From Puniceicoccaceae bacterium (lineage in GTDB: Bacteria > Verrucomicrobiota > Verrucomicrobiia > Opitutales > Coraliomargaritaceae), in contig REBV01000129.1 in NCBI GenBank assembly GCA_007692545.1, positions 1 through 39,906 of the forward strand: a stretch of 39,906 nucleotides of DNA, written 5' to 3'. The translations under genes were made by a program, and so were the position numbers. Under the pieces are notes generated by a model. It was not told the DNA's origin, made no database searches, and worked only from the letters and a program-made list of their open reading frames with translations. Shown in pieces: positions 17,861 to 33,490 of the stretch. How positions within the stretch are numbered: the stretch's first letter is position 1; the number at the start of each line of letters is the position of its first letter.

Positions 17861-18715
17861 CTACGCGCTTACATAGGCCAATTGCAGCAGTGCTTTAAGA
17901 CGCTCAACTTCATCACTGGAGGTTTTGGCAATGAAGCCCCGCGCGTGCGTAAAGTGCACATCAGTCTCTTCATCCAAGCGGGTGAATTCCATAGCCGGAT
18001 CGTCTTGAAAACGGCGCAGGCCATAGCCCTCGCCGCGGCTGTCCGGATAGACCAGCGCCCGTATTTCGCCCTCCATGCCGAGCTTCGCTACATGGTAGCC
18101 CATCCCCGCAGAAGCGTCTTCCGGTAGTGACTCCGTGCGTGGTAAGTAGAGTGCCTTAAAGCCGTCAAAGGCCCAGACTTCGGCGTGCTCGGCGACGAAA
18201 GCAAGGCGTTCTTTCAGGTTCGTCACGTAGTCCACCAGATCCTGACCAATCATTCGCATGACCTCCCAGACGGGCTCTCCCGGCTTGTGCTCCGTTCCGT
18301 TGGCGAAACGTCGTATTAGAGTGATATCGAGTGGCGAGTTAAGTCGGCCCACCAGCTCACGGTCGATGCCCAGCCATTCTGCCGTATCTGCTGGGCCCCT
18401 GCAATCAAACCACTCAGCCACTTCCAGCCAGCTGCAAAATTCGCGTGCCGATTCATAGATACCGAGGTGTTGCAGGACGAGTGAGAGTGCGCAAGTAGGG
18501 ACATGATCCCGGGGCAGTTGATGGTGGTCGAAGTTGTGTTGGTCCGGTGCGTGCTGATGGCCGACATCGACGACAGCCACACTTGGGTCGTCGAGGTCCT
18601 GTTCGGTCGGGTCACGGCGCAGGATGGGGACCGGAGCTAGGGTGAGGAGCACCGCGCAGGCTAAAAAGTCGTCTTTGTGGGCACCGCCCGGGTGAGTGAT
18701 TATGGTTTCGATCAT
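17861..18715 (-). CDS. MYG1 (UPF0160) family protein
   Basis: THPGGAHKDDFLACAVL, VAVVDVGHQHAPDQHNFDHHQ and DASAGMGYHVAKLGMEGEIRALVYPDSRGEGYGLR-like segments of the MYG1/DHH-related family. Confidence 0.82.
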   Translation of the reverse strand: MIETIITHPGGAHKDDFLACAVLLTLAPVPILRRDPTEQDLDDPSVAVVDVGHQHAPDQHNFDHHQLPRDHVPTCALSLVLQHLGIYESAREFCSWLEVAEWFDCRGPADTAEWLGIDRELVGRLNSPLDITLIRRFANGTEHKPGEPVWEVMRMIGQDLVDYVTNLKERLAFVAEHAEVWAFDGFKALYLPRTESLPEDASAGMGYHVAKLGMEGEIRALVYPDSRGEGYGLRRFQDDPAMEFTRLDEETDVHFTHARGFIAKTSSDEVERLKALLQLAYVSA

Positions 18716-18843
18716 AGCTGCCTAGTGCGCGGTCAGGAGGCGTCGCTGGCAAGTTTTCATTTTTACCGGTTGCGGAGCTACAAGGTTGCTAATTGTTTGC
18801 TCCTGACGCTCACTAGACAAGTCGATAGATTCGCTTCACACAA

Positions 18844-30834: not shown

Positions 30835-31791
30835 CTAATCGATAAAAATGGCTTCCGGTAGGTAGCTGGTAACGGTGTAGTGGGGCAGGTTGACGACTTG
30901 ACTGAGCTTCAGGTCGAGTGCGGCCGAGCAGACCAGAAAGGCCTGTTCGGGGCTGAGGCCTATCCGCGTTTGGATATAATCGATGGCCCGGCGAACGGCG
31001 TTCTGTGCATTGACCTTGATGTCCGGCCCGCTGGAGACAAAGGCATGAAAGGGCTTGCCCGCGTAGGCGGGGGGCGTCAGATCGGGCGTGGTGAGGATGT
31101 AGGGCTCAGTCACGGAGACCGTATCAGAAATACTGATGCGCAATTTCACATCCATTGGAGCTTCCAGGCCGTTGATCGATACTTCGCCATCGCCCTGGGC
31201 GGCGTGTGCGTCGCCGGCGCAGAGCCGGCCACCCGCGACTTGCACCGGCAGGTAGAGGGTACTGCCGGCCACGAGGTGTTTGACATCCATATTGCCCCCG
31301 AAAGCGCCCGGAGGACGGGTGCGGAACTTGCCTGCTTCTTTGCGTTGCAGTCCGATAATGCCACAAAACGGGTGGAGGGCGAGTTTGATGCCCGGCATAC
31401 TTTCGCTGAAATCGCCGTCGAGTGTCCAGTGGTGCAAATAGAAGTCTGAAAAGTCTTCGGGTAAAAAGCACCGCTCTGGATTGACGCTTTGCCAGGCCCA
31501 GCCTTTGTGCGCATATTCAAGAATCTCGATCTTGAGTGTGTCGCCGGGCTTTGCGCCCCGCACGGCCACCGGGCCGGTCAATGAGTGAATGAGTTCAAAA
31601 TCGATGTTCTTAAAGGCTTCGGTCGTCATGCCCGGGGTGACTTGGCTATCGCTGGAGTCAGCCATCTCGATCAGGATGCTATCGCCGGATTCGATCTCAA
31701 TTCGAGGTTTTAGCGCATTGTCCCAGCGGTTGTGGGTAATGGATTTGTCGAGGTGATGGTGCATGATCGGGTTGTTGGCTGGGGATTTCAT
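30835..31791 (-). CDS. Acetamidase/formamidase family protein
   Basis: HNRWDNALKPRIEIESGDSILIEM, GPVAVRGAKPGDTLKIEIL, PPGAFGGNMDVKHLVAGSTLYLPVQVAGGRLCAGDAHAAQGDGEV are FmdA/AmdA-family hallmarks. Confidence 0.92.
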   Translation of the reverse strand: MKSPANNPIMHHHLDKSITHNRWDNALKPRIEIESGDSILIEMADSSDSQVTPGMTTEAFKNIDFELIHSLTGPVAVRGAKPGDTLKIEILEYAHKGWAWQSVNPERCFLPEDFSDFYLHHWTLDGDFSESMPGIKLALHPFCGIIGLQRKEAGKFRTRPPGAFGGNMDVKHLVAGSTLYLPVQVAGGRLCAGDAHAAQGDGEVSINGLEAPMDVKLRISISDTVSVTEPYILTTPDLTPPAYAGKPFHAFVSSGPDIKVNAQNAVRRAIDYIQTRIGLSPEQAFLVCSAALDLKLSQVVNLPHYTVTSYLPEAIFID

Positions 31792-31876: not shown

Positions 31877-31960
31877 TCGTAGCGAGCGGGTTTATCCCGC
31901 GATTTATCAGTCTGAAAAGTCGATCTGTCTCGACTCCTGGCGTAAAGCCAGTCGCTACGA
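31877..31960. repeat. Cloverleaf-like palindromic element: 9-bp closing stem enclosing three hairpins
   Basis: Closing arms TCGTAGCGA (31877-31885) / TCGCTACGA (31952-31960). Hairpins GCGGG-TTTAT-CCCGC (31886-31900), AGTCGA-N6-TCGACT (31918-31935), CTGGC-GTAAA-GCCAG (31937-31951). Confidence 0.8.
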
Positions 31961-32140: not shown

Positions 32141-33490
32141 ATGCTTGAGACAGACCCCAGGTTTAAAGTCTTCCGCGGTGCGTTTATTCAATCGATCAGC
32201 GATCAGCGCGCTGAGTTCATTCCCGATGGGTTGGTGCTGGTTGCGTCAGCGGGCGAAGACTGCGGGCGCATTGTAGCCATGGGTGAGACCGCTCGGGTGG
32301 CCGCGGCCTACGGCCTGGAACTCAAAGACGAGTCGCCGGGGCAGGGCACGCATGTAGCGGGCGATCTGTGGCTACCGGCTTTTTTCGACACGCATTTTCA
32401 TTGGGTGCAGGATGCGGTGCGCGAGATGGCGAAGTATTCGCTGATTGAGTGGCTCAATAACATTACCTTTCCCGAGGAGGCGAAGTTTGCCGATGCGGCA
32501 TTTGCTGATAGGCAGGCGAAACAGTTTTGGGAAAGTATCCTGAGCCTGGGTACGGTCGGTGGGCTCTGCTACAGCTCGATTCATGAAGTGGCATTGGATG
32601 CAGCGATGCAGTGGGCACCGGCAGACTTTTATATTGGCAACGTGCTGATGACGATGGAGTGTCCGGACTATCTGCAACAAAGCGAGGCGGATGCCATCGC
32701 GATTGTGCAAAGCTGTGCCCGCCGCTATGGCCGGCGTTATATCGCCAGCCCCCGTTTTGCGCCGACGACGGCTCCGGCTGTCATGCGGGCAGCGGCAGAG
32801 GCCGCTCAAGCGAATGCCGCTTTTCAGCAAACCCATCTGGGTGAGACCTTGGCTGAAATTGACTGGGTACTGGATATTTACCGAAAGCTGCCCGGGTTTG
32901 AAGACGTGGGCTCTTATACTGAGATTTATCAACGGGTCGGTATGTTGGGTGAGCAGTCTGTATTCGGACACTGTATACATCTGACAGCTGATGAATGGCG
33001 TCTCTTGGCGGAATCGGGCAGTCGTATCGCCAGTTGCCCCACCTCAAATGCACCGGTCGAGAACATGGGCTTGGGCTCGGGTTTGTTCGACTACCCGACG
33101 GCCGAAGCCTACGGGGTGCCCTGGTCGCTGGCTTCGGATATCGGCGGTGGGCCTTACCTCTCGATGTTTGATGTGATGCATTCCTTCGTTTGGCAGAATC
33201 GTGCCATCGGCCGGGCCGATGCGACCTACACGAAAGCGCTCCACCGTGCGACGAGTCAGGGTGCCAAACTGATGGACCTGCCGGATCGTGGGGTGCTGCG
33301 TGAAGGCGCTTTTTTCGATGCGATCCGCCTCCGGATGCCGCAGGGGCAGTTTACTGCGGGGGATGCAGAGCCCATCCTGGCAGCTTTTTTTGAGCAGATC
33401 CCGGATCGGAAATCGACCGAAACACTGGTGCAAGAGACCTTTGTTAAGGGGGAATCACGTTTTAAGCGGGGGGCATCCACGTGCGATTGA
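32141..33490 (+). CDS. guaD: Guanine deaminase-like amidohydrolase
   Basis: GDLWLPAFFDTHFHWVQD metal motif, HLGETLAEIDWV, FGHCIHLTADEWRLLAESGSRIASCPTSNAPVENMGLGSGLFD, SLASDIGGGPYLSMFDVM typical of GuaD; first gene before xdhC/xdhAB. Confidence 0.9.
   Translation: MLETDPRFKVFRGAFIQSISDQRAEFIPDGLVLVASAGEDCGRIVAMGETARVAAAYGLELKDESPGQGTHVAGDLWLPAFFDTHFHWVQDAVREMAKYSLIEWLNNITFPEEAKFADAAFADRQAKQFWESILSLGTVGGLCYSSIHEVALDAAMQWAPADFYIGNVLMTMECPDYLQQSEADAIAIVQSCARRYGRRYIASPRFAPTTAPAVMRAAAEAAQANAAFQQTHLGETLAEIDWVLDIYRKLPGFEDVGSYTEIYQRVGMLGEQSVFGHCIHLTADEWRLLAESGSRIASCPTSNAPVENMGLGSGLFDYPTAEAYGVPWSLASDIGGGPYLSMFDVMHSFVWQNRAIGRADATYTKALHRATSQGAKLMDLPDRGVLREGAFFDAIRLRMPQGQFTAGDAEPILAAFFEQIPDRKSTETLVQETFVKGESRFKRGASTCD

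Follow-up and report, generated by a model that had tools for sequence, protein, structure and literature searches.

An 84-base cloverleaf-like element of a Puniceicoccaceae bacterium is very probably a REPIN built from two unlike GTAG-tagged units

What is the compact, cloverleaf-like element that lies between two divergent genes of a Puniceicoccaceae bacterium? The element sits in the 349 bp that separate an acetamidase/formamidase-family gene, read leftward, from an amidohydrolase-family gene, read rightward, in the window (the whole 39,906-nt stretch of DNA analyzed here). The amidohydrolase gene appears guanine-deaminase-like by context, and the neighbors include adenine-deaminase-like, XdhC-family and molybdenum-hydroxylase-type proteins, a neighborhood consistent with purine catabolism. 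A preliminary description had proposed a structured RNA, a protein-binding cruciform or a mobile REP/MITE-like element. We assign a probability of about 94% to the reading that the 84-base element is one copy of a heterodimer of GTAG REP units (a REPIN, broadly defined) mobilized in trans by a RAYT. Its placement between divergent purine-catabolism genes is then probably incidental.

All of the arms, the three hairpins and the T(A)7 run of the preliminary description are where it had put them (Table 1), with the TA7 run directly past the closing arm. Moreover, the minimum-energy structure is the four-way junction that it had drawn (-39.5 kcal/mol, z -5.17; 0 of 200 shuffles as low), and the opposite strand folds into this junction as well (-43.2 kcal/mol, z -6.64; 0 of 200 shuffles as low). 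An Rfam scan of the whole window returned no match. Taken alone, the 9-mer TCGTAGCGA occurs in the window no more often than chance would predict, and the argument therefore depends on the doublet with its copies.

Table 1. Features of the element, its flanking genes and the RAYT genes of the same genome.
Feature	Position	Strand	Sequence or evidence
Whole element (probable REPIN, GTAG REP heterodimer)	31877..31960	.	covariance-model match 87.9 bits (G000:C273:31877-31960, a copy among those used in building the model)
Family core	31879-31958		
Closing arms	31877-31885/31952-31960		TCGTAGCGA/TCGCTACGA
First hairpin	31886-31890/31896-31900		GCGGG/CCCGC
Middle hairpin	31918-31923/31930-31935		AGTCGA/TCGACT
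Last hairpin	31937-31941/31947-31951		CTGGC/GCCAG
L-type REP unit, GTAG tag outward	31879..31902	+	GTAGCGA-GCGGG-TTTAT-CCCGC-GA; 0 mismatches to family unit
Spacer, 32 nt	31903..31934	.	length kept, sequence free; no consensus pairs over 27 copies
R-type REP unit, inverted	31935..31958	-	GTAGCGA-CTGGC-TTTAC-GCCAG-GA on minus strand; 1 mismatch to family unit
Pyrimidine dinucleotide TC immediately before GTAG tag	31877..31878	+	counterpart 31959-31960 on minus strand
Flanking gene, acetamidase/formamidase family (PF03069), outside element	30835..31791	-	183.7 bits; ~87 bp from element core
Flanking gene, amidohydrolase family (PF01979), outside element	32141..33490	+	78.8 bits; starts ~180 bp past element
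RAYT of the same genome	C139:18181-18705	-	NCBIfam NF047646 REP_Tyr_transpos, 82.3 bits, cut-off 80
Second RAYT-like gene of the same genome (L216)	G000:C218:13640-14532		78.6 bits, just below NF047646 cut-off

Copies of the element, extracted with their flanks, share the plan GTAGCGA-GCGGG-TTTAT-CCCGC-GA, a spacer, and TC-CTGGC-rTAAA-GCCAG-TCGCTAC. The family core thus comprises two REP units in inverted orientation, designated L (GTAGCGA-GCGGG-TTTAT-CCCGC-GA) and R (GTAGCGA-CTGGC-TTTAT-GCCAG-GA), with an identical tag, a similar loop and different stems (GCGGG versus CTGGC). We identified 32 distinct doublets in this and related genomes with the units inverted and the tags outside, mostly separated by 29-35 nt; in an alignment of 27 copies, the spacer is ~32 nt long and near-constant in length, and its sequence is unconserved. 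In two doublets, L005 (C104) 1506-1622 and L008 (C112) 1418-1526, the spacer is longer and contains TGAGCTTGTCGAAGGGCGAT, apparently a further short repeat nested within it. At L254, L255 and L256 in the related genome G026, the usual doublet gives way to tandem L units that face the same way, with R units scarce or missing.

Over the 27 aligned copies, only the two outer hairpins and, within the closing stem, the seven inner pairs (GTAGCGA/TCGCTAC) are family-wide. The proposed 9-bp closing stem has all nine pairs in our element, but only 19 of the 27 copies form one of its two outermost pairs and only 16 the other, and the family does not keep them. Similarly, the four-way junction does form here, but its middle hairpin, which lies mostly inside the spacer, is specific to this copy; it is missing from the consensus fold, which has no pair within the spacer. 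Because the family keeps only the inner closing pairs and the outer hairpins, the junction is a three-helix clover plus a spacer hairpin peculiar to one copy.

Taking the nine closing pairs and the two hairpins together (19 pairs), 93% of cells are paired over the 27 copies, versus at most 45% with the partners slid. Two-sided changes occur at 7 pairs against a shuffled mean of 2.6 (0 of 500 as high), counts that are not probabilities since the copies are related. Compensatory substitutions between copies, which the preliminary description had suggested looking for, are present in both unit hairpins: the L stem changes from C-G to A-U in three copies and from G-C to C-G in one, and a two-sided change occurs somewhere in the family at three of the five R-stem pairs. 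The seven inner closing-arm pairs show almost no covariation and are conserved in sequence on both sides, as would be expected of a recognition tag borne by each unit. Of 124 unit copies, 115 have C or T just ahead of GTAG, a preference whose binomial figure overstates its significance because the copies are related. The TC pair at either end of our element may accordingly be a candidate cleavage boundary. A broader T-rich target preference before the L unit was considered and rejected (41% T in this genome's copies, 28% T in relatives); since the T-richness is not seen in relatives, we claim only the pyrimidine adjacent to GTAG.

When the 32 doublets are folded as DNA, the closing arm GTAGCGA/TCGCTAC forms in 23, and the stems of L and R do not pair with each other; all three helices appear together in 16 of the 32 copies, folded as DNA alone. 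With both local hairpins forbidden, the mean folding energy rises to -5.6 kcal/mol, compared with -17.4 kcal/mol otherwise. The long hairpin as drawn for other REPINs is unfavorable here because the two units differ, and these models suggest that the clover form is favored over it, as a tendency and not a rule.

The element is not single-copy. After merging of both-strand duplicates (20 rows), the covariance model matches 15 distinct places in its own genome, and it detects the family in 11 of 57 genomes, this one included; a DNA search likewise gave 11 of 57. Within the genome, the DNA search recovered many half-length matches and a single further one of nearly full length, at 80% identity. 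These copies are intergenic, lying between long ORFs, when judged by a simple ORF rule in six frames, and several are truncated or half units. Copy number is patchy, being high in this genome (G000) and in G005, G026, G030 and G043 and nil or low in most others; this genome and most relatives are draft assemblies. No exact empty site was found among the relatives, because the closest genomes are too diverged. Near a related amidohydrolase gene in G005 the element is absent, and only the coding sequence and a short stretch round its start could be aligned, with no junction. Some of the copies could have been inherited vertically.

A RAYT gene, the partner to be looked for if the element were REP-like, is present on contig C139 of the same genome with units of the family on both sides: an R unit at 18782 and, across the gene from it, L units at 17942 and 18093. 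Its product is the sole protein of the genome above the NF047646 cut-off, also matches PF01797, and is similar to the solved TnpA-REP 4er8. It reads intact, with a conserved HUH motif (H65-F-H67) and a conserved Y121 that aligns opposite Y115 of 4er8, the residue mutated as catalytic (PMC8266576). The gene is not itself multiplied (one match above 40% identity in G000). Homologs 59% identical to it, in G030 (C45) and G026 (C138), are embedded in arrays that contain R and L units of this family. The negative control comprised 18 distinct loci at which the Y1/RAYT-like transposase is more distant (L146 and L216 being one locus): none had a family unit within ~1.5 kb, and other repeated GTAG-tagged stems occur at 13 of these 18. 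Run as a positive control on a Pseudomonas RAYT locus, the unit finder recovered GTAGGAGCGAGCTTGCTCGCGAAC on either side of the gene.

Other RAYTs have units of their own. The second RAYT-like gene of the genome, on C218, encodes a protein 35% identical to the C139 RAYT and has a GTAG-tagged repeat, GTAGCGTCTGCGCTTGCGCAGGC, on both sides, the exact pattern occurring nowhere else. The nearest RAYT in a named genome, from an Opitutales MAG (43%), is accompanied by units that share the TTTAT loop and are tagged GTGGCGA; the nearest named relatives of the C139 RAYT thus point to an Opitutales-like member of Verrucomicrobiota. Several other verrucomicrobial RAYTs have GTAG-GTCGGGC-TTTAC-GCCCGAC units. 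In G005, ~37 places match the covariance model; a close RAYT was not found in its assembly (92% complete), and it may be lost or merely unassembled, alternatives that are indistinguishable in a draft. G043 and G036 contain related units and distant transposases only. Also spread over many contigs of the element's own genome are ~34 matches to Y1_Tnp (PF01797). Many of them fall in open frames ~340-360 aa long, an abundant separate group of Y1-transposase-like proteins.

Similar arrangements have been described. The literature already contains RAYT-associated REP doublets that the RAYTs have probably spread, and the REPINs of Pseudomonas fluorescens SBW25 resemble our family in their two inverted REPs, short spacer, intergenic location, and single-copy RAYT with the same units beside its gene (PMC3116915). 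A supplementary legend of that study gives a "clover" fold as the form likely recognized by the transposase (PMC3116915). Unlike in SBW25 REPINs, the stems of the present units differ, so that pairing along the whole length is poor. Head-head heterodimers with different, separately folding stems are known among GTAG repeat families, and Opitutus terrae is a GTAG-rich verrucomicrobial genome (PMC3733652). Like our units, those of GTAG-1/2 carry the tag outside and have a short tail and unpaired bases separating the tag from the stem, but ours have three such bases (CGA), not two (PMC3733652). REPtrons of E. coli, Stenotrophomonas and Marinomonas likewise combine a TnpA-REP with GTAG-tagged hairpins, and the Marinomonas REP has a 5-bp stem and a TTTA loop, with a gap of two bases after GTAG (PMC8266576). 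TnpA-REP cleaves single-stranded REPs in vitro in a GTAG-dependent manner at CT (CA in Marinomonas) (PMC8266576), whereas the present family is known from sequence, with its pyrimidine preference before GTAG. Overall, the family looks new and its kind ordinary, the GTAG families of PMC3733652 having been compared by description only.

The mobile REP/MITE-like option was thus well chosen: the family is multi-copy and intergenic, its stems carry compensatory changes, and in three genomes a RAYT is flanked by the same units. We propose a non-autonomous element of two inverted GTAG-tagged REP hairpins that has very probably been spread by the RAYT encoded elsewhere in the same genome. In single-stranded DNA, for instance during replication, the two unit hairpins would fold to give the clover form; the RAYT (TnpA-REP) would recognize the GTAG-tagged hairpins, cut beside them, and move or copy the doublet to a new intergenic site. 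For single-strand recognition, cleavage and strand transfer we extrapolate from published TnpA-REP biochemistry.

The position of the element invites a different explanation, in which folding within the 5' leaders of the divergent purine genes would make it a regulatory RNA or an attenuator acting in cis. It folds strongly on both strands, lies close upstream of both genes, and shows compensatory changes across the family. However, copies adjoin unrelated ORFs genome-wide, which makes the purine promoter one insertion site and not the function of the element; the spacer is unconserved; a scan of the interval found no promoter-like or terminator-like patterns; and in G005 the element is missing upstream of both relatives of the amidohydrolase gene, though the upstream neighbor differs there. 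With no Rfam match either, the structured-RNA option is unnecessary, and we regard it as scarcely credible. A side effect of the element on the 5' regions of both flanking genes is possible, if hypothetical.

Host roles in protein binding, DNA topology or transcript-end protection have been reported for enterobacterial REPs. Our family could by analogy be a REP/BIME-like one that has lost mobility and is kept for such a role, in keeping with the several truncated or half units in this genome and with the G005 copies that lack a close RAYT. Against this, the family has a cognate RAYT that reads intact and a copy number that varies patchily from one relative to another, and an element between divergent genes is unlikely to protect transcript ends, so that we consider loss of mobility very improbable. 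Mobilization by the RAYT remains the preferred reading, and the element may have an additional host role beside it.

The unlike units also prompt a speculative extension of the REPIN reading, in which L and R are distinct left and right ends that lock the clover form and give the RAYT a directional substrate. On C139 and in G030 an L unit and an inverted R unit bracket the RAYT itself, much as the ends of an IS200-type element bracket its gene, and the doublet could therefore be an internal-deletion form of an ancestral autonomous element. We rate this idea as unlikely, although less so than either alternative above. The analysis removes a false lead, in that the element is not a purine-responsive RNA; and a clear REPIN-RAYT pair with two dissimilar units offers a natural case for asking whether the halves of a REP doublet are distinct transposon ends.
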